DNA from: a virus
Direction: 5' to 3' (one strand)
Length of the DNA stretch: 48,853 nucleotides
Virus record (IMG/VR): IMGVR_UViG_3300024323_000010
Span: 1-48,853 of that record
A model generated the notes under the pieces. The model saw only the letters and a program-made list of their open reading frames with translations, was not told where the DNA came from and did no database searches. Below, piece by piece: positions 20,019-34,472 of this stretch (within the stretch, counting starts at the first letter, position 1; each line of letters starts with the position of its first letter). Made by a program: the position numbers and the translations under genes.

Positions 20019-20032
20019 ACCATTTCCTCCTG

Positions 20033-20105
20033 AAAAAGCGCCCCGGGGGCGGGATACCGTCAGAGGTCGGGGGGACCCGGAGCAAGCGTCCCGCCCCCGG
20101 GGCGC
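20033..20105 (-). terminator. Strong bidirectional terminator-like hairpin
   Basis: Two perfect 17-base arms (20038-20054 and 20089-20105, nearly all G and C) flank a 34-base loop. A-runs border the structure on both sides, giving five T on the minus-strand exit and four on the plus-strand exit. On the minus strand it separates the upstream operon genes from the TTG-start gene, whose ribosome site begins directly after the T-run. Confidence 0.75.
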
Positions 20106-20109
20106 AAAA

Positions 20110-20373
20110 TCACGCTTCGTCGGCGAGCTGCCTGAGCCGAGCGATGAGCTCGCTGCCTCCCCACAGTCCGTGCGCGCGGGCTTCCTGCTCGATCTCGTCC
20201 GCGCGCTTGCGCAGCCAGAGCGCCGATGCCTCCGGACCGTGCACGGAGATCATGAGCGAGAGCATCGCCGCGCAAAGGCCGGGCAGCTCATCCCGCACGC
20301 GGGCCATGTCCTCGAGCGCGCGCTCGGCTGTCCGCTGAGCGCCCCGGAGGGCATCCATCTCACTCGCCGCCAT
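20110..20373 (-). CDS. Helical hypothetical protein
   Basis: An 87-aa protein. ATG 20373 is set by GGAGGA six to eight bases upstream. It is amphipathic and helical (AQRTAERALEDMARVRDELP). It ends just before the terminator-like hairpin and overlaps the previous gene by 14 bases. No family is recognised. Confidence 0.55.
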   Translation of the reverse strand: MAASEMDALRGAQRTAERALEDMARVRDELPGLCAAMLSLMISVHGPEASALWLRKRADEIEQEARAHGLWGGSELIARLRQLADEA

Positions 20374-20821
20374 CGAGATCCTCCTCGGGCCCAAACTCCG
20401 CGAGCGCGGGGTTGCCTGAAGGCATGAAGCCAAGAATCGAACGCACTGCGTTGTACGCCCAGCCGGCCTGAAATGCCGTCGGCTCCCGCGAGCGCTCCAT
20501 CACCTGGCGGTATTGCTCCGGCTCGAGCTCCTCCCAGCGCTTCATGAAGGGATCGATCGCGAGCGGGCGCACGTCGAGCTCGGGGTGCTTGCGCGTGAAG
20601 AGCAGCATCCCCTGAGCGACGATGCGCGCCGCTTCGTTGTACGTCTCCGCCTTACCCTCGGGCAGTGGCTCGCAGATCCAGGCTTCGAGCGCCGCGCGGG
20701 AGAGCCGCTCGTTCGCGGCTGCCGCAGACTCCCCGCCGAGGATCATTTGGAGCGCGCGCTCCGGCAGAATCCCTTCCGAGGCCCCATCGGCGGAGCTGAA
20801 TGTCGCCTTCACGCGGGTCAT
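20360..20821 (-). CDS. Hypothetical protein
   Basis: A 153-aa acidic protein with PERALQMILGGESAAAANER near residue 20 and AARIVAQGMLLFTRKHPELD near 68. It starts in an ATGA overlap preceded by GGAGGGCGTC, a version of the operon's recurring junction. No family is recognised. Confidence 0.5.
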   Translation of the reverse strand: MTRVKATFSSADGASEGILPERALQMILGGESAAAANERLSRAALEAWICEPLPEGKAETYNEAARIVAQGMLLFTRKHPELDVRPLAIDPFMKRWEELEPEQYRQVMERSREPTAFQAGWAYNAVRSILGFMPSGNPALAEFGPEEDLDGGE

Positions 20822-21048
20822 GACGCCCTCCGGGCGCGGGCGCGCGCGGCCGCCTCGCGCAGTCCGTCCGCGATCGATTCGGCCTGCTCCGGGTCAAAGC
20901 CGATCCACGACACCTCGGTGCCGAACGCGAGGACGACCTTGCCTTCCTTCTCGAGGATGGCGAGCTTGAGGCCGCCGCGGTCGTCGGGGCGCATCTTTCC
21001 GCGCGGGAAATCTCCGGTCGATCCGAGCTTTGGCGGGGGCGACTTCAC
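20818..21048 (-). CDS. Small protein, paralogue of the 21490 gene
   Basis: A 76-aa protein. The core VVLAFGTEVSWIGFDPEQAE followed by SIADGLREAA aligns with VRLTFSQSITWMDLNPEQAA in the gene at 21490-21681. Shared positions are a short strand, W, a hydrophobic residue, D or N-P-E-Q-A, then a helix. Starts at GTG 21048 in a GTGA overlap after GAGGAGCAGCCGTC. The function is unknown. The fold looks like a strand plus a helix. Confidence 0.6.
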   Translation of the reverse strand: MKSPPPKLGSTGDFPRGKMRPDDRGGLKLAILEKEGKVVLAFGTEVSWIGFDPEQAESIADGLREAAARARARRAS

Positions 21049-21473
21049 GACGGCTGCTCCTCATCGGGTGGTTCGATCTTCCAGTCTTCGGGCGAGAGAT
21101 GCATCGCTGCCTGCGCGATGATGCTGGGCTCGATTCCGGCCAGCGAGGGGTACTTCTCGCCGTCGGTGCCCTCCGGGGGCTTGCGCGAGCGCACGTCGCT
21201 CATCTCCTCGGCCTGCCAGTGCTCGGGCGCCATCGCGAGGTGCTGGATGCGGTGCGCGAGCTCCTGGAGCGCGATGCTCGCGGCTCCGAGGAGGCCGATG
21301 CTTTGCGGCTCCGTCTGGCCGGTGACGTGCACGCCGCCCTTCTCGTCCACGACAGCGAGGAGAATCGCATGGCAGCCGAGCTGACGGCGCAGCACGTTTG
21401 CCTCTTTCCAGTGCGGGCCCGAGCCGACGCTATAGAGCTTCTTCTCGGGCGCGATCTTGAGCTTCTTCTTCAT
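21045..21473 (-). CDS. Hypothetical protein
   Basis: A 142-aa protein. ATG 21473 follows GGAGAAGCC. It has a basic start (KKKLKIAPEKKLYSVGSGPH), a beta segment (AILLAVVDEKGGVHVTGQTE) and a helix (ALQELAHRIQHLAMAPEHWQ). The acidic tail ends in EEQPS, part of the repeated junction. No family is recognised. Confidence 0.5.
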   Translation of the reverse strand: MKKKLKIAPEKKLYSVGSGPHWKEANVLRRQLGCHAILLAVVDEKGGVHVTGQTEPQSIGLLGAASIALQELAHRIQHLAMAPEHWQAEEMSDVRSRKPPEGTDGEKYPSLAGIEPSIIAQAAMHLSPEDWKIEPPDEEQPS

Positions 21474-21493
21474 GGCTTCTCCGTGGTGCTCAC
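21470..21493 (-). pseudogene. Seven-codon remnant between two operon junctions
   Basis: GTG 21493 overlaps the stop of the 21490 gene. The frame reads VSTTEKP and stops in an ATGA overlap with ATG 21473. It begins in one copy of the operon junction (GGAGATCCCGTCGTGA) and ends in a second (GGAGAAGCCATGA). It is best read as what is left after recombination between two junctions removed a gene. It could instead be a leader peptide. Confidence 0.45.
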
Positions 21494-21681
21494 GACGGGA
21501 TCTCCGCGTCATCCGGCACCGAATCGACGAAGTGCGCGAGCGCCATCGCAAGCGCGGCGGCCTGCTCCGGATTCAGGTCCATCCACGTGATGCTTTGGCT
21601 GAAGGTGAGCCGTACGGTTTGCGGCCCGGTGCGCATGATCGCTACCGCGAGCTGCGGCTTCTCGGCTGCGGGCGCGGTCAT
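21490..21681 (-). CDS. Small protein, paralogue of the 20818 gene
   Basis: A 63-aa protein. The core VRLTFSQSITWMDLNPEQAA followed by ALAMALAHFV matches the gene at 20818. It starts ATG 21681 in an ATGA overlap after GGAGG and ends in AEIPS, within the repeated junction. The function is unknown. Confidence 0.6.
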   Translation of the reverse strand: MTAPAAEKPQLAVAIMRTGPQTVRLTFSQSITWMDLNPEQAAALAMALAHFVDSVPDDAEIPS

Positions 21682-22358
21682 GAGGACCTCCGGCTCTCTC
21701 TCACGTCGTCGAGCCTCACTTGCATCAGCGCGCGCTCCTCGGCGGTAAGTCTGTTCAAATAGCGACGGAAGCGGTGCGGCGGAGTTTCGTCGCCGAAGAA
21801 CTCGCGGGCGAGCGCCCGCTCGGCGTCGCCATCCACCCAGTCGAGCTCGCGGCCCCACGTGCAGCGGGCGCCGCTCCACGCGGTCGGGCCGCGGCCCGTG
21901 CGCCGGAAGGCGAGGTCCACGCCCGGCTCGAGCTCGACGTCCACGAAGTGGATCCAGTGCAGGCCCGGCAGCGCCTTGAGCGCGCCGACCGTGCGTGAGG
22001 CTCCGGAGTTGCGCAGATCGAGCCGGATCTCGCTGCCATCGACCGAGTACTTCACGCCGTAGACGCAGGCGCGGGTGCTGCCGTTGCGGTCCACGCGGAA
22101 GCTCACCACGACGCCCGAGCGGTCCGGGCGATCCGACTCGCGGAAATTCCCGAGCAGCCACTCGCACTCGAAGGCGCGGCAGGAGAGCGGCAGGCGCTCG
22201 TCGTCGTAGATCGCGCAGCCCGAGGCGCACTGATGCGCGCAGCGCGTTCGGGTGGGCTTGTTGAAGGCGTAGGGCTCGCCGCTCGGGAGGTGGCCGCGTT
22301 CCTTCACCGCGAGGAGCTCGCAGCAGAGCTGGCACTCGCCGCACGCGCGCTCGCTCAT
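21678..22358 (-). CDS. YkgJ-type cysteine cluster protein
   Basis: A 226-aa protein. The N-terminal 80 residues hold CGECQLCC (about 6-13), C-A-H-Q-C near 40, GCAIYDDERLPLSCRAFECEW near 47-67. This spacing of eight or so cysteines is the YkgJ/Fe-S-or-zinc cluster domain found in bacteria and phages. The remainder is a mixed domain with HWIHFVDVELEPGVDLAFRR. The biochemical role of the family is unclear. ATG 22358 is in an ATGA overlap. Confidence 0.75.
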   Translation of the reverse strand: MSERACGECQLCCELLAVKERGHLPSGEPYAFNKPTRTRCAHQCASGCAIYDDERLPLSCRAFECEWLLGNFRESDRPDRSGVVVSFRVDRNGSTRACVYGVKYSVDGSEIRLDLRNSGASRTVGALKALPGLHWIHFVDVELEPGVDLAFRRTGRGPTAWSGARCTWGRELDWVDGDAERALAREFFGDETPPHRFRRYLNRLTAEERALMQVRLDDVRESRRSS

Positions 22359-22654
22359 GACGGGATCCCCTGGAGCTTCGACTCGGTGCGGATCACGCTC
22401 GTGATCTCATCGAGCAGCCCCTCGGGCTCGGTGCAGCGAGCGACGATCATCGCGAGCGCGCTGCAGTGCAGGCGCAGCATCTGGCGGAGCTGGTCGCCCT
22501 CATTGCTCGGCCTCGAGTGGCGTAGCTGCGAGCTGGAGCTGATCTCATCCCCGCCGCCGGTTATCAGGATCAGAATGTCGAGCGGCTCGGGGCTCGCGTC
22601 CTGCACGGCCTTGAACGCGAGCAGCGCGAGTTCGTATCCCTCCTCGGCCTTCAT
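22355..22654 (-). CDS. Helical hypothetical protein
   Basis: A 99-aa protein (EEGYELALLAFKAVQDASPE; MLRLHCSALAMIVARCTEPE). It starts ATG 22654 in an ATGA overlap after GAGGAGAAGCCGTC and ends in GIPS at the next junction. No family is recognised. Confidence 0.5.
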   Translation of the reverse strand: MKAEEGYELALLAFKAVQDASPEPLDILILITGGGDEISSSSQLRHSRPSNEGDQLRQMLRLHCSALAMIVARCTEPEGLLDEITSVIRTESKLQGIPS

Positions 22655-22941
22655 GACGGCTTCTCCTCGCCGGGCTCCGGGCGGCGGCCGGTGTTGGCCG
22701 GGTGGCGCTGGCCCTGGAAATCGACATGGCACACGTTGCACTCGCAGCGCACGCACCAGACCTGAAGGCCGAGCGGCGTGAAGCCGATCTCGAGGTGCGC
22801 CCACTGCCGCGGCGAGACCTGCGGCGGCTTGGCGGGCGTGCACTTCGCGCAGTGAAAGAACGTCGTGATCTCGTTCGTGTTCGGGATTGGCCGCTGCGGC
22901 GGGCGACCGGGCGGCGAGGGGCGGCGACCGAAGCGGCTCAC
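22651..22941 (-). CDS. Small cysteine-rich (zinc-ribbon-like) protein
   Basis: A 96-aa protein starting GTG 22941. Cysteines occur as CAKC near residue 31 and CVRCECNVCHVDF near 63-75, enough for one or two metal sites. The C-terminal GEEKPS is encoded by the repeated operon junction. The function is unknown. Confidence 0.55.
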   Translation of the reverse strand: MSRFGRRPSPPGRPPQRPIPNTNEITTFFHCAKCTPAKPPQVSPRQWAHLEIGFTPLGLQVWCVRCECNVCHVDFQGQRHPANTGRRPEPGEEKPS

Positions 22942-23240
22942 GACGGCTTCTCCGTGCCGGGCGGCGTGACGATCATCCCGCGGCGAGCGCGCCAGCGCGC
23001 CTCGAGCTGGTCGAGCGAGTCCTGGAGCGCGCGGCGCCACTCGGCCGACTCCTCGGGCTTCCACTTGCTGTCGAGCTTTGCGCGCAGCTCGACCGCTTTC
23101 GCGGCGAACTCGAGGACGGCAGCGGTGAGCGTGGGCCCGATCGTGCGCACGCCGGCGTCGCTGATCTCGCGCGTGAGCTGCGTGTAGCGGGCGAGCGCCG
23201 TCTCGATCGGCGTGCGCGGAACCGGCCGCTCGCCGGTCAC
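22938..23240 (-). CDS. Helical hypothetical protein
   Basis: A 100-aa protein starting GTG 23240 in a GTGA overlap. It has long helices (PIETALARYTQLTREISDAG; LEFAAKAVELRAKLDSKWKP). It ends GTEKPS at a junction copy. No family is recognised. Confidence 0.5.
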   Translation of the reverse strand: MTGERPVPRTPIETALARYTQLTREISDAGVRTIGPTLTAAVLEFAAKAVELRAKLDSKWKPEESAEWRRALQDSLDQLEARWRARRGMIVTPPGTEKPS

Positions 23241-24318: not shown

Positions 24319-25150
24319 CTGCGGCTCCGCGGGCCGCGCGTCCGGGGTGCCCACGCTGGCGGCCGCGGCCCTGCTACCAGAACCCAGGTACGCCTGTGGC
24401 TTTCGTGCGCGGGAGTCGCTGCGCGTGAACGACGGGGCGCCGCGCCGTCTGGAACGCTGCAGTGCCGAGCGCCCCGCTGGGATTTCCACTCAGGGGGCCC
24501 GCGAGGCCGGGAGTTGAGGCGGGAAATGGGAACCCGCCATCGGGTCGGCGGGGGGTGATGCCATCGGCCTGCCGGTCGGCTGCGTGCGCAGCTCACGCGC
24601 AGTCGATGCGCAGCGCGGCGGCAGCGAGCGCGCGGCGGACGCGCACGTGCGTGCGTACTGCGCATGCGGTGACGTCAGGGCGCGTCACCGCCATGTGCAA
24701 CTTCGCCTGTAACCACGCGGACTTACAGGGTGGCGCCTGCCCCTGAACCGCTGCCCACAGGGCAGTAGGACCGGCAGCTCGAGCGCAGCGCGGCGGCAGG
24801 ATCTGGGGGGAAGCGGGCCCGCGTGTGTGGGACGCTGCAGCGGCCGCGGCCATCCTCCCCTCCCTCCCCTGCCGTTTCTGTCAGGGGTGACCGCGCCCCA
24901 CCTCCCTACCTGAGCAGGGCAGGACGCCCCCGGTCCCGAGCCGGCTCGAAGATGACGGAATCGTAATCCTCGCCAGAGCGACCGCTGTCGCATGGGGATA
25001 TCCCCCCGTCCGAGGGCGCGTCTCCTCGGACCCGGAGTCCAGCGCGGTCGGCAGGTCGGCGGCAGCTTCGGTGCGGGCATTCCGCAGCATGGGGCGAGTT
25101 GCGCTCCTGCTGCGTGCGCAGTGCGGGTAAAACACCCCAATTCTGCTCGA
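24319..25150. other. Dyad- and repeat-rich noncoding region, possible replication origin
   Basis: No gene is supported. It holds a 17-base direct repeat (24608 and 24783, beginning GCGCAGCGCGG), a 12-base near-palindrome CTGCG-TG-CGCAG at 24580 and 25110, and a dyad GGTGACG-N8-CGTCACC (24668-24689). A perfect palindrome GGGGATATCCCC (24994-25005) and a hairpin GTCCGAGG-N8-CCTCGGAC (25008-25031) follow. Clustered dyads between divergent early operons fit an origin or control region, which is inference. Confidence 0.4.
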
Positions 25151-25185
25151 TTGACCGTTTTGTCTGAAACGGCTTGTGGGATAAT
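25151..25185 (+). promoter_or_regulatory. Candidate rightward early promoter with overlapping operator dyad
   Basis: GATAAT at 25180-25185 is a good -10. The best -35 choices are TTTTGT (25158, spacer 16) or the farther TTGACC (25151). The dyad CCGTTT-N6-AAACGG (25155-25172) sits exactly over the -35 region, where a repressor would block it. It drives the plus-strand operon that starts at 25476. Confidence 0.55.
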
Positions 25186-25475
25186 GAACTTGTCGGAACG
25201 GAGCGGCACTCAAGAGACCTCGCCGCGAGAAACGGACCGGCCAGTGCGGTGTGCGGAGCGACCCGGAGCGCTCCGAGGGCCTGCCAGAGGGATTCAGAGG
25301 CGCTTCGGCGCGTCCTCCCGTGCGGCTTCGCGGAGCAGAGCGAAGCGCGGCACTCCGACGACTCCGGGTGATTTTCCCTTCAAGCCCTGAGCAGCGGTCC
25401 TGACGCGCGCTTCGCACACGGATGCGGGGCGCGCGCGAGCGCCGCTGAGCTCGAAACCCCAAAGGAGAGACCCCA
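25186..25475 (+). promoter_or_regulatory. Long structured leader before the right operon
   Basis: About 280 bases lie between the candidate promoter and the first start. They include a hairpin GCTTCGC-N8-GCGAAGC (about 25322-25345) and end in the repeated AGGAGAGACCCC ribosome-site module. No frame looks coding. It may be a 5' leader with an antitermination or RNA-level function. Confidence 0.35.
25461..25475 (+). promoter_or_regulatory. Repeated AGGAGAGACC ribosome-site module, copy 1
   Basis: AAAGGAGAGACCCCA directly precedes ATG 25476. Near-identical modules precede ATGs at 25939, 26600, 26870, 27486 and, on the minus strand, 33125. Confidence 0.8.
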
Positions 25476-25859
25476 ATGATCCGGATTTACGTGAAAGGCG
25501 AGCCCAAGGCTGCGCAGACCCAGGCGATGGCGCGCGGAATCAAACTCGAGTTCGTCGCGATGTTCGCCGGTCCGCTCACGACGCATTCCGTGTGGCTCGC
25601 CCGGGAGGAGCACGCGGCCGCGGTCGCCGAATGGTTCCGCGAGGGCGGAATCAAGGCGCCCGAGGGCGGCTTTCCTCCGGGCACGCTGCTGATGTTCCGC
25701 CATCTCGAGCGGTACGAACCCTGCGACGCCGAGGTGCGCTGGGCCCAGCGTCTGCCGAGCAAGTGGCCCGGTTACGTGCACACGCTCGATCGCGCCATCG
25801 AAGGCAAGCCTTCGATGTACGTGGTGGAGGAGCCCACCTACCGCTCGTTTTGGATCTGA
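25476..25859 (+). CDS. First gene of the right operon, hypothetical
   Basis: A 127-aa protein, ATG 25476, five bases after AGGAGAGACCCC. The opening IRIYVKGEPKAAQTQAMARG and VWLAREEHAAAVAEWFREGG suggest a small alpha/beta fold. No family is recognised. Confidence 0.6.
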   Translation: MIRIYVKGEPKAAQTQAMARGIKLEFVAMFAGPLTTHSVWLAREEHAAAVAEWFREGGIKAPEGGFPPGTLLMFRHLERYEPCDAEVRWAQRLPSKWPGYVHTLDRAIEGKPSMYVVEEPTYRSFWI

Positions 25860-25923
25860 AGCATTCACCAGCGTTCTCGGCGCGATCCGAGGGCGCTTGC
25901 GAGCGCTTCAAGCCTCGAACCCC

Positions 25924-25938
25924 ACAGGAGAGACCCCG
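25924..25938 (+). promoter_or_regulatory. AGGAGAGACC ribosome-site module, copy 2
   Basis: ACAGGAGAGACCCCG precedes ATG 25939. The match with copy 1 extends upstream: both have a TCGAA word a few bases ahead of CCCCA. Together this makes a repeat of about 30-40 bases. Confidence 0.8.
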
Positions 25939-26097
25939 ATGACGATTCAGGTTGCCCTTGCGGCTGCGCTCCTCGCGAGCGTGGCCATTGCCTTCGAGCT
26001 CGGCCGAGCGATCGGCCGGGTCCAGGTGTCCCGAGAGCTCGGGACGCTGCGCTCCATGCTCACGAGCGGCCGCGCCGTCTGCCGCAACCGGTACTGA
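25939..26097 (+). CDS. 52-residue membrane protein
   Basis: An N-terminal membrane segment (QVALAAALLASVAIAFELG) is followed by a short basic tail. The start is fixed by the ribosome-site module. The function is unknown. Confidence 0.6.
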   Translation: MTIQVALAAALLASVAIAFELGRAIGRVQVSRELGTLRSMLTSGRAVCRNRY

Positions 26098-26102
26098 CCG
26101 CC

Positions 26103-26534
26103 GTGCGCTACGAGGTCTTCGAGAGCGGAAACGGCTTCGGCGTGATGGATCTGCATCACCAGCGCCGACGCGTCCACTGGAGCGCGCGGCGCGACGATGC
26201 GGAGCGCGTCGCTGCCGTCCTGGAAGGCGACCCGAACCGCGACAGCGCAAAGCAGCGGATCGAATATCTCGAGTCCCTGCTCTCGGTCGCCGCGGTCACC
26301 CTGCAAGCGATGCTTGAGGCGTCGCTACGCACCGACGATGCAGCGTGGGCTGCGGGTGTCGAGCGCGCGGGAGTCTTCCGCCCCTGTGACGCCGCGGTGC
26401 GCGAGCTGCGCGCAATCTTCGATGCGGTGCCGGGCACCTCGGCACGCTGCGCAACGTGCCACGAGCCGGCGCTGCTGCTCGGCGATGGCGATGCGCGCTG
26501 CCATCACCACGGCGTAACGACGCCTCTGCCCTGA
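26103..26534 (+). CDS. Hypothetical protein with C-terminal cysteine/histidine motif
   Basis: A 143-aa protein from GTG 26103, five bases after the previous stop and without a clear ribosome site, so translation is probably coupled. It has a helical middle (SAKQRIEYLESLLSVAAVTL). The end carries CATCHEP and CHHHG, a likely zinc site. No family is recognised. Confidence 0.5.
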   Translation: MRYEVFESGNGFGVMDLHHQRRRVHWSARRDDAERVAAVLEGDPNRDSAKQRIEYLESLLSVAAVTLQAMLEASLRTDDAAWAAGVERAGVFRPCDAAVRELRAIFDAVPGTSARCATCHEPALLLGDGDARCHHHGVTTPLP

Positions 26535-26599
26535 CGAGTCCGGTAGGACGAAACCGCGCAGTGGCGCGGTCGGCAGATACCCCTACAGGAGAGACCTTC

Positions 26600-27334
26600 A
26601 TGAAGATTTCGGACGTGAAAATCGGCGGAACCTACGAAACCAAAATCGGCTCGGAGATTGTGCGCGTGCGCGTGCTTGCCGAGCGCAAGCCGCTTCCCTA
26701 CGCCGATACAGTGACGCGCAGCTACGGCAGCCGGCCGACTCGATTCCTTGTGGCGCGCACGGACAACGGCCGCACGCTGCCGAAGACGCGCACGGCCGCG
26801 TCTCTCCGCCCGTGCGAGGCTCGTTTCTGCGGATTCACCCGCTACCCCCACAACAGGAGAGACCCCATCATGGGAGACCGAGCGATCGTGCATTTCTACG
26901 CGCCGAAGGATGGCGCCGAGCTCTCGCCCGCCGTTTACCTGCACTGGAGCGGCAGCGATGTTCAGTCCCTGCTGCGCGAGACCTTCGAGCTCATGCGGAC
27001 GCGCGGCGCGGATCTCAGCTACACCACCGCGCGTTTCATCGGCATCTGCCACACGAAACTCGACGGTAATCTCTCGCTCGGCGTGTGGAATGCGCCCGCG
27101 GACGGCCTCAAGGCTGCGCGCGACCCCAGCTACTCGCACGGAGACGCGGGGGTCTTCATCGTGCATCTAACCTCCCACGGGTGGGAGATCGAGATGCACG
27201 GCGGCTACGGCTTCCATCCGAACATCCCTGCCCGGGACTTGCAGCGGCCGCGCGTCCTGTGGGCCTGGAAGGATCCGGCGCCCGATGCGCCCGGGCTCGC
27301 GAGCGGAGCGCGCGCGCTCCAGGAAGGAAGGTGA
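26600..27334 (+). CDS. In-frame fusion of two small phage proteins across a leader
   Basis: A 244-aa open frame. Residues 1-72 (KISDVKIGGTYETKIGSEIV to AASLRP) look like a stand-alone small beta domain widespread in phages, whose natural end is near SLRP. Residues about 73-90 are translated from an AGGAGAGACCCC leader. Residue 91 is an ATG at 26870 with its own ribosome site, beginning MGDRAIVHFYAPKDGAELSP, a separate 154-aa domain. The stop that should divide them is absent. Either a 244-aa fusion, a separate 154-aa product, or both are made. Confidence 0.65.
   Translation: MKISDVKIGGTYETKIGSEIVRVRVLAERKPLPYADTVTRSYGSRPTRFLVARTDNGRTLPKTRTAASLRPCEARFCGFTRYPHNRRDPIMGDRAIVHFYAPKDGAELSPAVYLHWSGSDVQSLLRETFELMRTRGADLSYTTARFIGICHTKLDGNLSLGVWNAPADGLKAARDPSYSHGDAGVFIVHLTSHGWEIEMHGGYGFHPNIPARDLQRPRVLWAWKDPAPDAPGLASGARALQEGR
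26852..26869 (+). promoter_or_regulatory. Ribosome-site module inside an open frame
   Basis: CAACAGGAGAGACCCCAT precedes the internal ATG 26870 while also being translated as HNRRDP in the upstream frame. Its agreement with the other copies argues that the internal start is used. Confidence 0.65.
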
Positions 27335-27338
27335 CGTC

Positions 27339-27404
27339 ATGTCCGTGTGGGCCGCCATCGCGATTTTTCTGATCGTCTCGGCGACGTTCGCCGATCAGCA
27401 GTAG
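27339..27404 (+). CDS. 21-residue hydrophobic peptide
   Basis: ATG 27339, with GGAAGGAAGG about nine bases upstream, to TAG 27402. The sequence MSVWAAIAIFLIVSATFADQ plus Q is a single membrane segment or a signal-like peptide. It fills the space between two genes. It is plausible as a membrane mini-protein. Confidence 0.5.
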   Translation: MSVWAAIAIFLIVSATFADQQ

Positions 27405-27418
27405 ATTTCTCCAGGGGT

Positions 27419-27471
27419 GTTGCGTGTGCGGCGCGCCGTGAGCGACCATACGGGGCGTCCGCACACGCAAC
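27419..27471 (+). other. 13-base perfect inverted repeat directly before a ribosome site
   Basis: Arms GTTGCGTGTGCGG (27419-27431) and its exact complement (27459-27471) with a 27-base loop. The right arm ends at the first base of the AGGAGAGACC module of the 27486 gene. It could stabilise the mRNA or control access to the start. No T-run follows. Confidence 0.65.
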
Positions 27472-27485
27472 AGGAGAGACCGAGA

Positions 27486-28052
27486 ATGTCCGAACAGGTC
27501 GAAATCGAGACCTTCGACCGCTCCAAATGGGGCGATGGCCCATGGCGGGATGAGCCCGACCGAGTGGACTTCGAGCATGCGGGCCTGCCCTGCCTGCTGC
27601 GGCGCAACTCCATGGGCGCGTGGTGCGGCTATGCCGCGGTGCCGCCCGGGCATCCATGGCACGGGATCGAGTACAACGCCTGCCTCACGCCTGCCGATCT
27701 CCTGCACACGAATGATGAGAACGGCTGGCACGACTGCGAGCGGCGACCCGAGTCGATCGCCCGCGTGCACGGCGGACTCACCTACTCCGGCGCATGCTTC
27801 GGCAACATCTGCCACGTGCCCAAGCCCGGCGAGCCGGCGGACGTGTGGTGGTTTGGCTTCGACTGCGCGCACTTCCTGGACCTGATTCCGCAGATGGTCA
27901 AGTTCCGCGAGGAGCACGACCTGCCGCCGCGCGACAATTTGGATCCGCAGTGGCAGGAGGTCTATCGCGACATGGCCTACGTGCGCGCGGAGACCGAGCG
28001 GCTCGCCGAGCAACTCGCAGCAGTGGCGGCGCCCAGCGCCGTGATGCCATGA
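27486..28052 (+). CDS. Conserved-looking phage protein of unknown function
   Basis: A 188-aa protein. The segment ARVHGGLTYSGACFGNICHV followed by DVWWFGFDCAHFLDLIPQM (about 95-140) recurs in phage accessory proteins. It holds several Cys and His, possibly a metal site. The C-terminus is a helix. It starts with the ribosome-site module. The biochemical function is unknown. Confidence 0.6.
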   Translation: MSEQVEIETFDRSKWGDGPWRDEPDRVDFEHAGLPCLLRRNSMGAWCGYAAVPPGHPWHGIEYNACLTPADLLHTNDENGWHDCERRPESIARVHGGLTYSGACFGNICHVPKPGEPADVWWFGFDCAHFLDLIPQMVKFREEHDLPPRDNLDPQWQEVYRDMAYVRAETERLAEQLAAVAAPSAVMP

Positions 28053-28507
28053 GCGCGGACGTTCGCGCCGCATGGGCGGCGGCCGAGCGGCTGCGCGACT
28101 TCGCCGAGGAGCTCCCGCAGCCCGGCGGCAGCGGCCCGATGGATGCCGATGCGGCCGAGCGCACTGCGGCAGATATCACCGCGGTAATCGCCGTCGCCGA
28201 TGCCGCGTGCGCCTGCGGCGGGGAGCACGTCTGCGAGCGCGACGTGGCGGCCGCCCGCGCGGCGATCCGCGTGCTGCTCGAGGAGCATCACCTGGCGGAT
28301 TTCGTCTACAACGTGCGCCAGCGCGCGGCGGAAGGCGGCCAGAGCTTTCAGGGCAACTCATGGGAGCACCCCAAGGTGCGCAGCTTCGCCGGCGCGGTGG
28401 AGACGCTGCGCGCCTTCGCCAAGGGCGGCGCGGCGACCAAGATTGCCCCGTGCCCGCTCTGCGGCGGGTTCGGGATGCACCTCCACGGCTGCCTGGGCCA
28501 CCTGTGA
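28049..28507 (+). CDS. Hypothetical protein with C-terminal zinc-ribbon
   Basis: A 152-aa protein, ATG 28049 in an ATGA overlap. It is helical with a CACGGEHVC word near residue 52. It ends CPLCGGFGMHLHGC, a short ribbon of the kind seen in many small phage proteins. The function is unknown. Confidence 0.55.
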   Translation: MSADVRAAWAAAERLRDFAEELPQPGGSGPMDADAAERTAADITAVIAVADAACACGGEHVCERDVAAARAAIRVLLEEHHLADFVYNVRQRAAEGGQSFQGNSWEHPKVRSFAGAVETLRAFAKGGAATKIAPCPLCGGFGMHLHGCLGHL

Positions 28508-28752
28508 GCCGCGCCGGCCCCTTCCCGCGCTGGCTTTGGGACCCCATCACGCAAGGCTGGCTCCTCCTGCGCGCGGACGGCACGCTCCACGAGCAGGGCG
28601 GCCCCGGCGATCCGCCCATGCCCACGGAGCCGATGCTGCGCCTGAAGCTGGACGGCTGGCGCGAGCACCGCGCGGACGGATCGAGCGTGCCACTGGACCC
28701 GCGCGACTTTCAGGGCGGCATCATCTGCGTGGCGCCGAAGCAGAAGCCATGA
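28504..28752 (+). CDS. Small hypothetical protein
   Basis: An 82-aa protein from GTG 28504 (GTGA overlap), beginning PFPRWLWDPITQGWLLLRAD. It is Trp/Pro-rich. The tight overlaps on both ends support it. No family is recognised. Confidence 0.5.
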   Translation: MSRAGPFPRWLWDPITQGWLLLRADGTLHEQGGPGDPPMPTEPMLRLKLDGWREHRADGSSVPLDPRDFQGGIICVAPKQKP

Positions 28753-29138
28753 GCGACACCCCGCCGATTCACCCGCCGCTCGGGCCCGGCTACTGGTACG
28801 ACATTGCGCCGGACGGCCGCTCGATCAGGTGCGCGAACTGCGGGCGCACCTCGCACAACCCGAACGACGCATACTTCCGGTACTGCGGCGCGTGCGAGAC
28901 GCTGCTCGGCCCGCAGGTGCGCCAGCGCTGGAATACCGAGCGCGACCAGCTTCGCGAGCTCTGCCAGACGCTCGGCCGCTACAAGCGCGTAACCGGGCCA
29001 GACGGCAAGGCGCGGCGCGTGCCGACAGAGTGGATCATCACGCAGGGGATCAAGGGGGACGCGCTGGAGTTCTTCCCCCTGTGGGAGGACGGCGACGAGT
29101 CGCGCCGTCCGGAGGGGACATGTCTGCGCATGAGCTGA
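28749..29138 (+). CDS. Zinc-ribbon protein
   Basis: A 129-aa protein. CANCGRTSHNPNDAYFRYCG (about 27-46) gives two C-x2-C pairs 16 residues apart, a clear ribbon. The remainder is charged and helical. It overlaps the next gene by 19 bases. Confidence 0.6.
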   Translation: MSDTPPIHPPLGPGYWYDIAPDGRSIRCANCGRTSHNPNDAYFRYCGACETLLGPQVRQRWNTERDQLRELCQTLGRYKRVTGPDGKARRVPTEWIITQGIKGDALEFFPLWEDGDESRRPEGTCLRMS

Positions 29139-29845
29139 ACGCCAAGATGCGCGCGCTCGAGATCCCGCGGCGCATGCGCGCGCTGCCGGTCGATGAGCGC
29201 GGCTTTCTCGTGCCCTGGTTCGTGGCGGTGATCGATGGCAAGCCAGACCACCGCGTGATGGATGGCACCAAGTGGCGACAGGCGATCAAGTTCCGCCTCT
29301 GCTGGCAGTGCGGGGAGCCGCTCGGCAGCCGCGGCGCCTTCGTGCTCGGCCCCATGTGCGCGGTGAACCGGACGAACGGCGAGCCCCCGAACCATTTGGA
29401 CTGCGCCCGCTTCGCGGTGCGGGGCTGCCCGCATCTCTCGCAGCCGCGCGCGCGACGCCGCGGGGATCCGATGGAGGAGTACGGCGAGCTCGCGAAGACC
29501 CCCGCGGGCTACGGCGCCAAGCGCAACCCGGGCGTGATCGGGATCTGGGTTACGAAGCACTGGGAGGTCTTCAAGGTGCCCTCGCACCCGGGCGCGGGCC
29601 CCGGCTTCCTCGTGCAGGTCGGCGATCCCGAGCGCGTGGAGTGGTTCAGCGAGGGGCGCCCCGCCACGCGCGCCGAGGTCGAGACGAGCATCGAGGGCGG
29701 GCTCCCGCTCCTCATGGAGAAGGCCGAGCAGCAGGACCGCGAGGAGCCCGGCGCGGGCGCGGTGAAGCTGCTCCGGCGCATGCTCGTGCGCGTCGGGCCC
29801 TACCTCCCGCGCGGCGAGCTGCCGGGGGAGATCACCGCGCCGTGA
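29120..29845 (+). CDS. Hypothetical protein with CxxC motif
   Basis: A 241-aa protein, ATG 29120 after GGAGGGG. The first 120 residues include CWQCGEPLGSRGAFVLGPMC and a further Cys/His pair (CPHL), probably a metal-binding domain. The second half is soluble and mixed (VIGIWVTKHWEVFKVPSHPG). The two halves may be separate domains. No family is certain. Confidence 0.55.
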   Translation: MSAHELNAKMRALEIPRRMRALPVDERGFLVPWFVAVIDGKPDHRVMDGTKWRQAIKFRLCWQCGEPLGSRGAFVLGPMCAVNRTNGEPPNHLDCARFAVRGCPHLSQPRARRRGDPMEEYGELAKTPAGYGAKRNPGVIGIWVTKHWEVFKVPSHPGAGPGFLVQVGDPERVEWFSEGRPATRAEVETSIEGGLPLLMEKAEQQDREEPGAGAVKLLRRMLVRVGPYLPRGELPGEITAP

Positions 29846-30240
29846 GCCGCGCGCCCTACTGGATCTTTCGCGGCACGCTGGCCCGCGTGGTCGATGGCGA
29901 TACGGTGGACGTTCTTGTGGACCTCGGCTTTCGGATCAGCGCGAAGATGCGCTTCCGCGTGGCCGGGATCGATACGCCGGAGCTGGAGGGGCCGACGCGC
30001 TCGATGGGCCAGCGGGCGGCCGACCGCACCCTGCGCTTTCTCGCGGGCGCCGAGATCGAGATCGCCAGCCGCGGCGAGGTGGACAAGTACGGAGGTCGTT
30101 GGGACGGGGACCTGTCCGTGGGCGGAGTGGATCTCGCCGAGACGCTGGTGCGCGAGGGTTGGGCCCAGCGCTACACCGGCGCGGGGCCGCGGCCGCTCTG
30201 GGATCCGGCGGGGCAGTACCCGCGCCCGGCTGCCGCATGA
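29842..30240 (+). CDS. Thermonuclease-like (SNase fold) protein
   Basis: A 132-aa protein. RVVDGDTVDVLVDLGF (about 15-30) and FRVAGIDTPELEG (about 38-50) are the two signature segments of staphylococcal nuclease homologues, giving the calcium-binding Asp pair and the Glu after DTP. The third segment reads EVDKYGGRWDGDL, with a modified YGR region. There is no signal peptide, so it acts in the host cytoplasm. It may degrade host DNA or RNA. It starts GTG in a GTGA overlap. Confidence 0.8.
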   Translation: MSRAPYWIFRGTLARVVDGDTVDVLVDLGFRISAKMRFRVAGIDTPELEGPTRSMGQRAADRTLRFLAGAEIEIASRGEVDKYGGRWDGDLSVGGVDLAETLVREGWAQRYTGAGPRPLWDPAGQYPRPAAA

Positions 30241-30437
30241 GCGACGAGGTGATCGAGCTCGACTCCTACCGGCCGCACTACGTGTTCTCGTGCCAGTGCG
30301 AGGGCGAGAACCATGGGGTCGCCGTCGTGCCGGATGCCTGGCTGCAGGGCATCGCGCGCGGGGATCCGACGGTGGCGCCGCTCCCGCCGTGCCTCCTGCG
30401 CATCATCGTCGGCGAGTGGCTGGACCTGAACCCGTGA
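30237..30437 (+). CDS. Small hypothetical protein
   Basis: A 66-aa protein (ATGA overlap), with FSCQCEGENHGVAVVPDAWL in the middle. No family is recognised. Confidence 0.5.
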   Translation: MSDEVIELDSYRPHYVFSCQCEGENHGVAVVPDAWLQGIARGDPTVAPLPPCLLRIIVGEWLDLNP

Positions 30438-30453
30438 GCGGAGGGAGACGGCC

Positions 30454-30783
30454 GTGAGCGACCGGAATCTGTGCCTGTGGTGCGAGGAGCCTGTGACGCC
30501 AAGCGGGGTTCAGCAGTCCCCGATTCCGTCGCAAGGCGCGGACGGCTCGTGGGAGCTCCGCCTGCAGCATCGCGAGTGCGCCGCGCGCGCCATTCTGGGC
30601 GGCCTGAACCATCTGCAGGGCCGCTGCTCCTGCTGCGGCGGGACTGAGCCTCCGGACCCGCCCGCGCTCAGCCGGCGCCAAGCGGCGCTCGCGGCCTTTG
30701 CCTGGATCCAGGAGCACACCGTCCCCCCGATCCCCCTGTGCGACCCGAGGCGCGTGCGTAACCTCACGAATAATTTTCGTTAG
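30454..30783 (+). CDS. Small zinc-ribbon protein
   Basis: A 109-aa protein from GTG 30454 after GGAGGGAG. CLWCEEP near residue 6, HRECA near 45 and CSCCGG near 59 make one four-ligand site likely. The stop overlaps the dyad at 30766-30780. Confidence 0.55.
   Translation: MSDRNLCLWCEEPVTPSGVQQSPIPSQGADGSWELRLQHRECAARAILGGLNHLQGRCSCCGGTEPPDPPALSRRQAALAAFAWIQEHTVPPIPLCDPRRVRNLTNNFR
30766..30780. promoter_or_regulatory. ACGAA-N5-TTCGT dyad, candidate operator
   Basis: Perfect 5-base arms with a TAATT centre, 17 bases before ATG 30797. Related dyads lie at 34452-34466 and 40106-40120, both in control gaps. Confidence 0.5.
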
Positions 30784-30796
30784 ACTGGAGCTGGCG

Positions 30797-31477
30797 ATGG
30801 CGACCGAGACGTACGGAAATGGCCACTACTGGCGGGATTCCGCCGGCGTGTGGCGCTACACCGTCTCAGGTGCGCCCGTGCCCGGCGCCCGCCCGCGTCA
30901 GATTTTCGACGCGGAGCACGACTACCCGCGTCGGGAGATTGACAGCGTCCGGTACGTGGTGGTGCCGCGCTGGCGCCTCGATACGCATCCCGAGCTCATC
31001 CCCGTCTGCGCGCGCGAGGGCGTGCTGGCGGAGCAGCGCGGGCTCGAGCTCGACCTGCTGCTGGTGCCCGAGCCCCTCTGGCCGACAGCGCCCGACCCGG
31101 CCGGCGGCATGTGGGCGCCCGAGCTGGCGCCCGACCGCCTGGTCGACGCCGCGGAAGCGGCCGCTCTGATGGGCTACGCCCACAGCGACACGATCTGGGC
31201 GCTCCTGCGCAAGGGCGTCTTCCCGGCGCCCTACCTGCGCCTGAACGCGGCGCGGGGGCACGCGGCCGGCCGGCCGCGGACGGCGTCGACCACGTTCTGG
31301 CCCCGCCCCGTGCTCGAGCAGTGGCGCGACCGCTGGCGCGAGCTCTTCCCGCGCCGCTACGACGTCGCGGCCAAGGTGGCCTCGCAGCGGCGCCGCCGCG
31401 CGGAGCGCGAGGCTCGCCTGGCAGCTCTCGGCCGGGTGGCTTCGCGGCCCGGGCCGCCACAGCGGAGGCGGGCGTGA
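30797..31477 (+). CDS. Helix-turn-helix (AlpA/MerR-like) protein
   Basis: A 226-aa protein, last gene of the right operon. Residues about 115-180 read as a winged HTH: RLVDAAEAAALMGYAHSDTI, then WALLRKGVFPAPYLRLNAAR, then TFWPRPVLEQWRDRW. This helix, turn, wing and W pattern is like AlpA/excisionase-type binders. The N-terminal 110 residues are a mixed beta domain I do not recognise. The C-terminus is very basic. With an operator-like dyad just upstream it may be autoregulated. Confidence 0.6.
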   Translation: MATETYGNGHYWRDSAGVWRYTVSGAPVPGARPRQIFDAEHDYPRREIDSVRYVVVPRWRLDTHPELIPVCAREGVLAEQRGLELDLLLVPEPLWPTAPDPAGGMWAPELAPDRLVDAAEAAALMGYAHSDTIWALLRKGVFPAPYLRLNAARGHAAGRPRTASTTFWPRPVLEQWRDRWRELFPRRYDVAAKVASQRRRRAEREARLAALGRVASRPGPPQRRRA

Positions 31478-31490
31478 ACCGCGAGGGCCC

Positions 31491-31826
31491 TCAGCGCCGC
31501 GCGTCGAGGATCCGGACGCGCTCGTAGAGCGCATCCACGCGCCCCTCGAGTGTCTGAAAGCGCCGCTCGCGCTCCCCGCTCAACGACTCAATGTGGGCCG
31601 TCAGCGCGGCGAGCCCGACCTTCAGGCCGGCGATCTCCTCGGCGTTCGCGCGCACGCGCGACTCGAGCGCGATCGAGCCGCCGCTGATCGCCGCCACCGC
31701 CTGCTGCTGCGGCTCGCGCACGATGGCGCTGCCCAGTCCCGCCGCAGCGCCGCCGGCGATGGCGGCGGCAACGCCTACGACGCGCCAGAGCATGGTGACG
31801 TTGCCGGTCCCGTTCTCGGTCGGCAT
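31491..31826 (-). CDS. Membrane-anchored coiled-coil protein, possible lysis partner
   Basis: A 111-aa protein. Residues about 12-35 (MLWRVVGVAAAIAGGAAAGL) form one membrane segment. The rest is a coiled coil (HIESLSGERERRFQTLEGRV). A short inner-membrane anchor with periplasmic coil downstream of an endolysin resembles an i-spanin or a holin-associated protein. No outer-membrane partner is seen. GGGGGG lies ahead of ATG 31826. Confidence 0.5.
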   Translation of the reverse strand: MPTENGTGNVTMLWRVVGVAAAIAGGAAAGLGSAIVREPQQQAVAAISGGSIALESRVRANAEEIAGLKVGLAALTAHIESLSGERERRFQTLEGRVDALYERVRILDARR

Positions 31827-31990
31827 CGGCCGAGCCCCCCAGGGGCTTGTGGAAGGGCGAGAGTCCCCCGCGGGAGGGTTACCCCGGGGCGACCCCCACG
31901 CATGGTCAGGAGAGACCCTCGAAGAGTCCGCCCCCGGGGGTGTGCCCGAGAGGACTCCCGCCCTGCGACCAGGATACCCCATCCGCGCGC
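31827..31990. other. Gap between endolysin and the coiled-coil gene
   Basis: 164 bases without a gene. On the plus strand it holds an orphan copy of the AGGAGAGACC word (about 31909-31918) not followed by a start, and the hairpin arms GAGTCC and GGACTC around a GC-rich centre (about 31925-31960). Confidence 0.4.
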
Positions 31991-32509
31991 TCAGGCCGCC
32001 AGCCGCATTCCGGCGCGCAGCTCGTAGCCGCAGAAGAACGACAGATCCGCCACGCGGGCCATCCACCCCGGCATGAAGACGGGCTTTCCCTCCGCGGCGA
32101 GCTCGCGGACGCGACGCAGCAGGACGTCGTCCAGGAACGGGCGCGCGCCGTCCGGCCGGGCCCAGATGGCCTCGATCGCCGCCCGCGTGATGGGGCCGAT
32201 CGCCCCATCGGCGCCCACGCCCGCCGCGCGCTGGAGCGACATGGCGGCGGTGGGCACTCCGCTGTGGACGCCGTGGTCGAAGACGGCGGCCGCGAGCGGC
32301 CAGGGCAGGAGGTCGCCGCGCAGCGGGAACCAGTAGAGCTGCTCCAGGAGCACGATGGCGTCCGCGCGCGTGAGCTTCGCGACGTCGATCTTCGGATGCC
32401 AGCGCTGCGAGATCCCGTAGCGCGTGAGCCCGCCCGGGTCCTGCGGGTGGTCGCTCTGCTCGCCTTCGTAGTCCAGAGTGAGTGCCACTGCCTGCTCGAA
32501 GTGAGTCAC
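31991..32509 (-). CDS. Endolysin, GH108-type N-acetylmuramidase
   Basis: A 172-aa cell-wall hydrolase. Residues 13-33 (YEGEQSDHPQDPGGLTRYGI) match the GH108 signature: the catalytic Glu (15 or 17), DPGG, T and YGI. HGVHSGVPTAAMSLQRAAG and DGAIGPITRAAIEA (about 88-125) match the second conserved stretch. No signal peptide is seen, so a holin is needed. GTG 32509 follows GGGGAGAG. Confidence 0.85.
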   Translation of the reverse strand: MTHFEQAVALTLDYEGEQSDHPQDPGGLTRYGISQRWHPKIDVAKLTRADAIVLLEQLYWFPLRGDLLPWPLAAAVFDHGVHSGVPTAAMSLQRAAGVGADGAIGPITRAAIEAIWARPDGARPFLDDVLLRRVRELAAEGKPVFMPGWMARVADLSFFCGYELRAGMRLAA

Positions 32510-32660
32510 TGACTCTCCCCTACACCCGGGGCGAGGAGCCTACGCGGACCGCCCCACGCCAAGAAAGGCGGAAAGGCTCCCCGCCCCGGGGATTCGAAAG
32601 CGCCGTTATCGAGCCAGGTGGCGCCGACCTGGGCCGCTCAACTCGCGGCAGCGCTCGCCG
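32510..32660. other. Gap with hairpin between TerB-like gene and endolysin
   Basis: 151 bases without a gene. It has a hairpin CCAGGT-N7-ACCTGG (32614-32632) and GC-rich stretches. It probably terminates or attenuates the upstream cassette. Confidence 0.35.
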
Positions 32661-33125
32661 TTAGGACTCGTAGAACTCGGTCGGGTCGAGGTTGAGCAGC
32701 GCGCAGCCCTTCGCGAAGCGCGCCTTCTCCTTCTCGCCTGCGGCGCCGTCCGCCATCATCACGTCGTAGCCGATGAAGGCGACGTACTTCGCCATCTCGG
32801 TTCCGTCGGGCTGCTTCAGGATGTCGCGCATCTCGCCCTCGAGCGCGTAGCGGCCCGTCGCGCTCTCCACGCGCGAGATCATCTTGTTCATGCAGGCTTC
32901 CACCTCGGCGCGGTCGAATAGCTCGCCGAGCTTGGGACTCTGACTCACCGCCTGGATCGCCATCTGCTTCTCGGCGGGCGAGACGCCGCCCTCGGCCCCG
33001 GCCATGAGCGCCGCGAACGCACACGCTGCCTCCAGGAAATCCTTGTTTCCCGTGAGGTCCTTCTGCACTGCGCCTGCCGCTCCGGCGAGCGCCTTCCCTA
33101 CCTTCGACTTGCCGAACCATCCCAT
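32661..33125 (-). CDS. TerB-like protein
   Basis: A 154-aa protein recognisable as the tellurite-resistance TerB helical fold. FLEAACAFAALMAGAEGGVS then PAEKQMAIQA (about 28-60) has the pattern of acidic residues after the first helices. YDVMMADGAAGEKEKARFAK (about 120-140) is the mirrored half. The last word is LDPTEFYES. TerB proteins act at the membrane in stress and phage-related systems, with unclear chemistry. Its ATG is preceded by AGGAGAGACC on the minus strand. Confidence 0.75.
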   Translation of the reverse strand: MGWFGKSKVGKALAGAAGAVQKDLTGNKDFLEAACAFAALMAGAEGGVSPAEKQMAIQAVSQSPKLGELFDRAEVEACMNKMISRVESATGRYALEGEMRDILKQPDGTEMAKYVAFIGYDVMMADGAAGEKEKARFAKGCALLNLDPTEFYES

Positions 33126-33126
33126 G

Positions 33127-33252
33127 TCAGGGTCTCTCCTTCGTGTGATGAAACCGGTAGCTCCACCGCTCGTACACGCGGCCCACATAGAACGAGACCG
33201 CGGCGACGACGATGGCGAACGTGATCTCGAGTCCAGCGATGATGGTGAACAT
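33127..33252 (-). CDS. 41-residue membrane protein
   Basis: ATG 33252 overlaps the previous stop (ATGA) and TGA lies one base before the TerB start. The sequence FTIIAGLEITFAIVVAAVSF is a membrane segment, and the tail RVYERWSYRFHHTKERP is basic. Confidence 0.5.
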   Translation of the reverse strand: MFTIIAGLEITFAIVVAAVSFYVGRVYERWSYRFHHTKERP

Positions 33253-33566
33253 CAGTCGAGCCCATCGCCCCAGAGCGGCGGCCCGTCCGGCTCCTGCTCG
33301 CGCAGCCGCTTCGCAGCGGCGCGCACGCGCTCGGCCGTGAGCGGCGAGTCGCCGGGCGGGACCGTGTTGTCGAAGTCGAACGCGCGCGGCCGCTCGAAGC
33401 GCACGCGCTCTCCGCTGAGCCGCTCGGGCGCGCGGATCGGGGTCGGCGGCGGGCGCCGCTCCTCGGGCTCCGGATCCGGGTCGGCGCCGCGCACCGCGAG
33501 CCAGATGAGCCGCAGGAGCAGCCCGCCGAAGATCAGCGCCATCGCGACGCCGAAGCCGCAGGTCAT
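33252..33566 (-). CDS. Membrane-anchored protein with charged tail
   Basis: A 104-aa protein. Residues 3-28 (CGFGVAMALIFGGLLLRLIW) are a membrane segment. The rest is Pro/Arg/Glu-rich. It overlaps the neighbours in ATGA steps. Confidence 0.5.
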   Translation of the reverse strand: MTCGFGVAMALIFGGLLLRLIWLAVRGADPDPEPEERRPPPTPIRAPERLSGERVRFERPRAFDFDNTVPPGDSPLTAERVRAAAKRLREQEPDGPPLWGDGLD

Positions 33567-33979
33567 GGCCGCACCGGATAGACGCGCGTGGGGATCCCCG
33601 CGCGGATCGCCTTCGTGTAGCAGTCCACCGTGCCCTTGCTCCTCCTGCAGGGAAACGCGAGGCACACGTCGGCGCCGAGCTCCACCATGAACTCGTTGCG
33701 CCGCGGCCCCGCGCCCGGCCAGCGCCCGAACTTGCTCTCGAGCGGCGGGTGGGGCTCCACCGTGATCTCGGGGAATTGCTTCCGGAAGAACTCGTCGGTG
33801 AGCTGATCGCACCCCGGCGCGCCGGTCTCGCTATCGCCGGGGCCCGCGCCGTGCACGACCGTGATGGAGGCCAGCGGCGGCCCTTCGAGCTCATCGAACG
33901 CCGCCCGCCACTCCCAGAAGGCATCCCGGATCGGGCCGGGGTCCTTCATCCGCCGCGAGCCCGTGATGAGGATTCTCAC
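33563..33979 (-). CDS. SLOG-family (YspA/DUF2493-like) protein
   Basis: A 138-aa protein. RILITGSRRMKDPGPIRDAF (1-21) opens a Rossmann-like fold. SITVVHGAGPGDSETGAPGC (about 40-60), GRWPGAGPRRNEFMVELGAD (about 86-105) and FPCRRSKGTVDCYTKAIRAG follow. These are the VHGxxxGxD, RNxxM and KGT landmarks of the YpsA/SLOG nucleotide-binding superfamily common in phages. It probably senses or handles nucleotide derivatives. The ligand is not known. Confidence 0.75.
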   Translation of the reverse strand: MRILITGSRRMKDPGPIRDAFWEWRAAFDELEGPPLASITVVHGAGPGDSETGAPGCDQLTDEFFRKQFPEITVEPHPPLESKFGRWPGAGPRRNEFMVELGADVCLAFPCRRSKGTVDCYTKAIRAGIPTRVYPVRP

Positions 33980-34155
33980 GATGCGATCTCCCTGCGCAGC
34001 CACCCGATGAAGCTGAGAATGCAGGGCACCCACAGCGGGGCGGACACCCACAGCCAGCTCCAGTCGATCACGTGGCCGAGGCGCAGCCCCAGGAAGAGCA
34101 GGAAGAGCGCGCCGTCGAAGCGCAGCGGGGTTCCGATCGTGCCGTCCTTCGCCAT
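33976..34155 (-). CDS. 59-residue membrane protein
   Basis: Two membrane segments (GALFLLFLGLRLGHVI and WVSAPLWVPCILSFIGWL) lie between a short N-terminus and the RREIAS tail. It starts one base into the preceding stop and overlaps the SLOG gene by four. Confidence 0.55.
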   Translation of the reverse strand: MAKDGTIGTPLRFDGALFLLFLGLRLGHVIDWSWLWVSAPLWVPCILSFIGWLRREIAS

Positions 34156-34433
34156 CAGTGCACGTGCGCCCCGGCGGGTTTGCCGTCGAGGATTTCGGCG
34201 AGCTCCTGCTGCAGCCGGCGGCCGAGGTCCGGGTTGTGGCGGATCAGCCAGTGAAAGAACGTGTGGAGAGCGCAGCAGAGGGGCGGATCGCCCTGCGCCG
34301 GGACGCCCTGCAGCGCGTGCTCGCCGGTGAGAACGTCGATCATGAGCAGCACGGCGTGAACATCCCGGCCACGCTCCTGCGCCTGCGAAACGACCGCTGT
34401 GAGCCCGGCCGTCACCATCTCCTCGATCTTCAT
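34155..34433 (-). CDS. Hypothetical protein, first of the lysis/SLOG cassette
   Basis: A 92-aa helical protein. ATG 34433 follows GGTGGAGATGG. HAVLLMIDVLTGEHALQGVP and LCCALHTFFHWLIRHNPDLG are its main blocks. No family is recognised. Confidence 0.5.
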   Translation of the reverse strand: MKIEEMVTAGLTAVVSQAQERGRDVHAVLLMIDVLTGEHALQGVPAQGDPPLCCALHTFFHWLIRHNPDLGRRLQQELAEILDGKPAGAHVH

Positions 34434-34451
34434 CCACCATCTCCACCAGCG

Positions 34452-34466
34452 GAGAAAAATTTTCGT
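34452..34466. promoter_or_regulatory. Dyad related to ACGAA-N5-TTCGT at a transcription start
   Basis: GAGAA-N5-TTCGT, with one perfect and one degenerate arm. It lies exactly where transcription from the minus promoter at 34473-34501 would begin. Confidence 0.45.
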
Positions 34467-34472
34467 TGCGGC

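Follow-up and report, generated by a model that had tools for sequence, protein, structure and literature searches.

A repeated Shine-Dalgarno-containing word before non-structural genes of a virus genome, with a predicted hammerhead ribozyme upstream of one copy

The IMG/VR virus record IMGVR_UViG_3300024323_000010, analysed here over its whole length of 48,853 bases (the window; ~69% G+C), carries the 10-nucleotide (nt) word AGGAGAGACC a few nucleotides before six start codons, and one of these copies stands directly behind a sequence with the exact core and the predicted fold of a type I hammerhead ribozyme. The word can be read as an AGGAG Shine-Dalgarno (SD) core that is always extended by AGACC and does not vary among the six non-structural genes it precedes. 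We interpret the arrangement as a stereotyped leader for initiating translation of accessory genes that are expressed separately, similar to the start-associated sequences (SAS) of other phages, with the mRNA cut or folded just upstream, and we put the probability of this interpretation at about even (roughly 0.5). Such a leader would mark genes that are started one by one instead of by coupling. In the rightward operon, RNA structure would often lie upstream of the leader; at copy 3 the hammerhead would cut the polycistronic mRNA past the stop codon of the preceding gene, so that 28 nt of leader bearing the word remain, and a similar processing role, or a protective one, may fall to the long hairpins of copies 1 and 5.

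The record contains seven exact copies of AGGAGAGACC (Table 1), where Markov models of orders 1–4 predict 0.07–0.12, and six of the seven lie 3–5 nt upstream of an ATG (the module starts). With start linkage scored in both orientations, it is the top over-represented start-linked word among the SD-containing 10-mers of the window (p 1e-12). An earlier note on this DNA, made from its letters alone, had described nearly the same bases at five plus-strand starts and one minus-strand start, a likeness beyond the needs of a ribosome site, a longer similarity between copies 1 and 2, and an orphan copy near 31909; these observations are borne out, with the orphan at 31908. Near-matches (up to two mismatches) are not enriched, at 36 found against 52.8 expected, and the signal therefore resides solely in exact copies. 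Beyond the ten bases, copies 1 and 2 have a 33-nt stretch in common at 73% identity. Over the 40 nt upstream, ungapped identity among all copy pairs is 0.17–0.45 (random mean 0.29, 99% point 0.47), most pairs other than copies 1 and 2 lying at about the random level. That the word is identical in every copy while most flanks are near random argues for selection over recent copying. All six module starts are outside the structural arm, and a gap of more than 50 nt precedes four of them. The suggestion that these genes are spaced rather than overlapped is correct for copies 1, 2, 3 and 5, where copy 1 follows a long divergent gap and the gaps before copies 2, 3 and 5 measure 79, 65 and 82 nt; it fails for copy 4, inside an open frame, and for copy 7, in the last codons of the upstream open reading frame (ORF). 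A role for the word in translation fits with its position, its orientation and its conservation beyond the SD.

The candidate hammerhead upstream of copy 3 has the exact core (CUGANGA, GAAA and UH) and perfect stems of 6, 4 and 7 bp. Its score lies below the Rfam gathering score of 34 bits; the Rfam scan by E-value (E up to 1) also missed the hammerheads with exact cores and perfect stems in two other contigs, G379 and G380, described below. A strict type I finder returned this sequence as its single match in the window; neither 100 Markov sequences nor the 7.1 million strand-bases of loci scanned with it gave any. The UGA inside the CUGACGA core is the stop codon of gene 41, and cleavage is predicted after 26571, 15 nt upstream of the word and 28 nt from the ATG. 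Judged from its core and modelled fold, the sequence is likely to be a self-cutting RNA. The structures at copies 1, 2, 3 and 5 are unlike one another in sequence; at copy 5, a UUUCUCC before the 27418–27472 repeat pairs with the GGAGAGA of the word.

Table 1. Copies of the word, module genes and predicted RNA structures in the window
Feature	Position	Strand	Remarks
Long imperfect stem-loop upstream of copy 1	25388..25453	+	z -3.2; 1/200 shuffles as stable
Copy 1 of AGGAGAGACC	25463..25472	+	exact match
Gene 39, 127 aa, module start	25476..25859	+	zero Pfam or PHROGs matches
11-bp stem-loop upstream of copy 2	25870..25897	+	leader as a whole not unusual, z -1.1
Copy 2	25926..25935	+	exact match
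Gene 40, 52 aa, hydrophobic N-terminus, module start	25939..26097	+	
Gene 41	26103-26534	+	stop TGA within hammerhead core
Predicted type I hammerhead ribozyme	26525..26577	+	Rfam RF00163 22.5 bits, E 0.035; minimum free energy fold is the hammerhead fold
Copy 3, 15 nt past predicted cut	26587..26596	+	exact match
Gene 42, 244-aa open frame, module start 26600 and second in-frame module start 26870	26600..27334	+	
Copy 4, within gene 42 frame	26855..26864	+	pairs with upstream TCTCTCC in predicted fold
Perfect 14-bp inverted repeat abutting copy 5	27418..27472	+	z -6.6
Copy 5	27472..27481	+	exact match
Gene 43, 188 aa, module start	27486..28052	+	PHROG 2164
Orphan copy	31908..31917	+	in 164-nt non-coding gap 31827-31990 between two minus-strand genes
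Gene 54, TerB-like, module start 33125	32661..33125	-	Pfam PF05099 E 2.6e-6; PHROG 632
Copy 7, in last codons of upstream ORF 55	33131..33140	-	

The record encodes an integrase, a major capsid protein and a terminase. Positions 1–145 and 48709–48853 form a near-perfect terminal repeat (143/145 identical), and the genome is therefore probably closed; neither Rfam at the gathering score nor a tRNA search gave any match across the whole record. The terminase is 22–27% identical to its matches in named phages. Scanning four window proteins singly led to one locus (L001), which is without the word, and many relatives were reached by terminase alignment, the nearest of which (G042) has 60–85% identity in most structural genes and no counterpart of the 23–39 kb stretch of the window. 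Matches by terminase among metagenome-assembled genomes (MAGs) belong to TA06 and Proteobacteria and are 46–48% alike.

A motif search in related phages, which the earlier note had proposed, did not find the word: it is absent from all 40 viral records with a related terminase, which together with three MAG genomes make up 43 of 79 loci in this sample. Two of the three MAGs contain matches, one of them 13 where the control gives 9 and the other 2 where it gives 1. The word occurs in none of 33 further records, from which four word-selected records were left out. Among 299 Pseudomonadota genomes, 114 hold at least one AGGAGAGACC-N(2-5)-ATG, with a maximum of four per genome; bulk use of the word by the host, one part of the outcome that the earlier note had named as refuting, is ruled out for these sampled genomes. 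The longer leader CCCC-N(2-5)-AGGAGAGACC-N(2-5)-ATG gave 92 stretches in the whole collection, with one match each among the 80 listed. Because the related records lack the word, the sampled genomes make no bulk use of it and no listed stretch holds an array, the word is lineage-specific. Stereotyped SD words do exist in some other phages, namely in one of 25 related records (G064, TTTTAAGGAG, four copies of which three are start-linked) and in three of the four word-selected records.

A finder for all three hammerhead types, run over all collected loci, gave convincing-looking hammerheads in two unrelated phage contigs, both of which had been fetched solely through the leader pattern. In G379 (IMGVR 3300025723_000117; L046) a stretch of 0.7 kb holds three type II hammerheads, each of which precedes an SD leader, these leaders being ACAGGAG-ATG, AGGAGAGACCAGA-ATG and AGGAGAGATTGCA-ATG; one hammerhead lies 21 nt upstream of AGGAGAGACC, and, as read by eye, a stop codon adjoins the first and also the third. 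The group sits between genes, at L408:14378-15094 in reverse-complement coordinates. In G380 (IMGVR 3300038701_000498; L338) one type II hammerhead is followed by a GTATGCG-CAA-CGCATAC hairpin and then by GGAGAGACTA-ATG; this GGAGAGAC leader is accompanied by four further GGAGAGAC leaders, and a hairpin like the one behind the hammerhead occurs at three of the four. Hairpins of the GTATGCG-NNN-CGCATAC type occur 15 times on the plus strand of G380 (L409-L411) between 30.4 and 42.4 kb, several directly upstream of an SD and ATG. In RiboJ, an engineered insulator, a hairpin follows the ribozyme, an arrangement that resembles G380 and not copy 3. What matters in this recurrence is adjacency to leaders, not frequency. 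Finder matches in L216 and L329 have weak stems and look spurious. Comparison of the window hammerhead with named phages by blastn led to Xanthomonas phage RiverRider, whose type I hammerhead (L434:17809-17858) is unannotated, stands before a tRNA cluster and not an SD, and has a stem II much like that of the window. G382 holds a type III match under the Rfam gathering score (L414:10988-11049, minus strand; 29.4 bits, E 0.026), and the remaining Rfam matches of the scans are weak.

We compared the arrangement with known systems on the basis of parts of the published texts. The SAS of cluster K mycobacteriophages and of Microbacterium cluster EF are SD-containing words that are unusually conserved (PMC3203893, PMC7302621), and a 2025 survey covering 188 phages of cluster K states that SAS function still awaits experimental verification (PMC12699233). 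Like the SAS and extended SAS (ESAS) of cluster K, the window word is asymmetric, covers the SD a few nucleotides before starts, exceeds rRNA pairing, belongs to non-structural genes and is rare elsewhere; the cluster K elements mostly follow gaps of more than 50 nt, about half with an upstream inverted repeat (PMC3203893), and in the window four of the six starts have such a gap and some an upstream inverted repeat. Set directly against the published consensus GGGATAGGAGCCC, for which up to two mismatches are allowed, AGGAGAGACC is however a different word, and it has seven copies where cluster K genomes have 11–19 (PMC3203893). Nor do the upstream structures of the window form the one conserved 17-bp imperfect inverted repeat of ESAS; one of them is the hammerhead, and no SigA-like promoter match accompanies them. 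Because consensus and upstream repeat differ, the word is not a cluster K SAS; by analogy it behaves like one, as a repeated SD-containing word a few nucleotides before starts, present above chance and rare in related phages and in the sampled genomes.

Cluster EF offers a further likeness, with 10 start-linked copies of an SD-containing word and an upstream element, but there the word is GGGAAAGGACCCC, the element is centred on GTAGAG, and the available part of the account contains no ribozyme (PMC7302621). Prophage hammerheads flank single genes and may, as has been suggested, break transcripts up into mRNAs the length of one gene (Perreault et al. 2011, PMC3088659), and in the haloviruses HF1 and HF2 a hammerhead variant lies 13 nt upstream of a start codon (PMC3088659). 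A repeated initiation word, which accompanies the hammerhead of the window, is not linked to those of prophages in the accessible text, which mentions neither 'Shine-Dalgarno' nor 'ribosome' (PMC3088659). RiboJ likewise places a self-cleaving ribozyme before a gene, in this case as a synthetic insulator (PMC6206723). In the open-licence literature, as far as its texts were available, we found no report of a start-associated word joined to a hammerhead. The link of a start word with a hammerhead and with structured leaders is new in this sense and recurs in unrelated phages; any function of it is putative.

In a test devised after the hairpins had already been noticed, the upstream regions from -100 to -13 are more strongly folded at the six module starts (mean z -2.26) than at 72 other starts (mean z -0.23; Mann-Whitney p 0.0005), and four of the six are among the nine most structured of 78 starts. 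Besides this order of events, several findings weigh against a processed or folded leader. The prediction gives the SDs of the modules no advantage in accessibility, with a mean unpaired probability of 0.30 where other SDs have 0.42. This leaves the idea of an open leader unsupported, and at copies 4, 5 and 7 the module SDs are largely occluded in the prediction. A strict count of adjacent hairpins shows no excess in the window (one of six GGAGAGA starts, seven of 30 other GGAG starts), and word-free intergenic gaps can be strongly folded too, as at 20019–20109 (z -5.3). No related phage that we found spans the module region. Stereotyped words are also not peculiar to this record: G383 has seven copies of CACAAGGAGA, all start-linked, G380 four of AAGGAGAGAC and G382 four of AGGAGAGACC. 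Hammerhead-bearing loci number 1/119 and 1/73 in the word-selected sets against 0/136 in the terminase-selected set, and these counts are small. A pattern of hammerhead core plus SD matched 16 times in 15 of 398 bacterial genomes, against once for the control, and all 16 loci were rejected when reading by eye revealed no hammerhead.

The alternative that asks least of the word is a plain strong ribosome-binding site, in which AGACC would be drift or mild 16S pairing with no separate function. The major capsid gene starts behind AGGAGAGAGA, stereotyped SD words occur as well in G383, G380, G382 and G064, and GACC can add a few pairs with the 16S tail, the kind of extended pairing that the earlier note had proposed to look for. 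A generic 16S tail can in fact form pairs with nine of the ten word bases by way of an interior loop and a bulge, but only AGGAG pairs well: alone it gives -6.4 kcal/mol and the whole word -7.2, a trivial gain of ~0.8 kcal/mol, calculated with a tail that may not be that of the host. The other part of the refuting outcome, pairing over the whole word, thus holds in a weak sense only. By this generic measure the conservation of the word exceeds rRNA pairing. Moreover, AGACC is perfectly identical at the six starts and is missing from every one of 29 further GGAG-led starts in the phage, and we consider this explanation doubtful. A trans-acting regulator that targets the word is unlikely as well, be it an antisense RNA from the minus strand of 31827–31990 or an RNA-binding protein of the phage. 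Such a regulator would account for the orphan copy, whose non-coding gap is bordered by two minus-strand genes, one endolysin-like (Pfam Glyco_hydro_108) and one small; ~0.1 copies are expected by chance in the whole record. The minus strand of the orphan reads GGTCTCTCCT, a perfect 10-nt antisense of the module placed in a 4-bp hairpin, GGUC-UCUCCU-GACC, with UCUCCU in the loop, and the SDs prone to occlusion would suit such control. Yet shuffled sequences fold as well as the gap does (z -0.3 in one test, -1.5 in another), no promoter or terminator match lies near it, and duplex energies of its RNA, uninformative over long GC-rich RNA, do not single out the module leaders. A single chance copy is not improbable, and a regulatory RNA at the orphan is possible but weakly supported.

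Exchange of the genes themselves was the other proposal of the earlier note, with the modules as borders of cassettes spread by recombination at the repeated leader. The module genes look accessory, being TerB-like or without family matches, and copies 1 and 2 have their longer repeat in common; most other flanks, though, are near random identity, none of the other contigs holds a leader array (80 listed of 92 stretches), and a 10-nt identity is short for recombination, all of which makes this origin quite improbable. Still harder to credit is a promoter within every leader, as proposed for phage Adephagia, whose ESAS have been read as SigA-like promoters with inverted repeats (PMC11373665). 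The leaders of the window are G+C-rich with no common -10-like element by eye, and a promoter and terminator scan of 24500–36000 gave no sigma-70-type or terminator match.

Two module starts belong to one frame: no stop lies between 26600 and 26870, and both starts share the frame to 27334, which could mean an internal start within a fused protein of 244 aa, or the loss of a stop codon. The GC content at third codon positions (GC3) of this frame is 0.55 just upstream of the second start and 0.80–0.84 on either side. A second repeated junction is present on the minus strand at 20360–23240, at five places in an overlapping leftward operon; the upstream proteins end in KPS, QPS or IPS, and (GAGAAG)CCGTC[A/G]TGA forms the start-stop overlap. 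The fold at 20019–20109, also on the minus strand, is a 17-bp G+C-rich hairpin with T runs on either side, terminator-like, before gene 27.

What start-associated sequences do in phages has been an unanswered question since 2011. If the word of this virus is indeed an SAS-like initiation leader, the copy directly behind a hammerhead with a predicted cut offers a clean handle on whether such words belong to processed mRNAs, and it suggests a reason for prophage hammerheads sitting between genes. It is possible, though we propose it only tentatively, that unrelated phages independently build an insulated cassette of stop codon, self-cleaving hammerhead or hairpin, GGAGAGAC word and ATG, by which the genes of an operon would be cut apart and translated singly. 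Were this true, the cassette would be a natural counterpart of synthetic ribozyme insulators.

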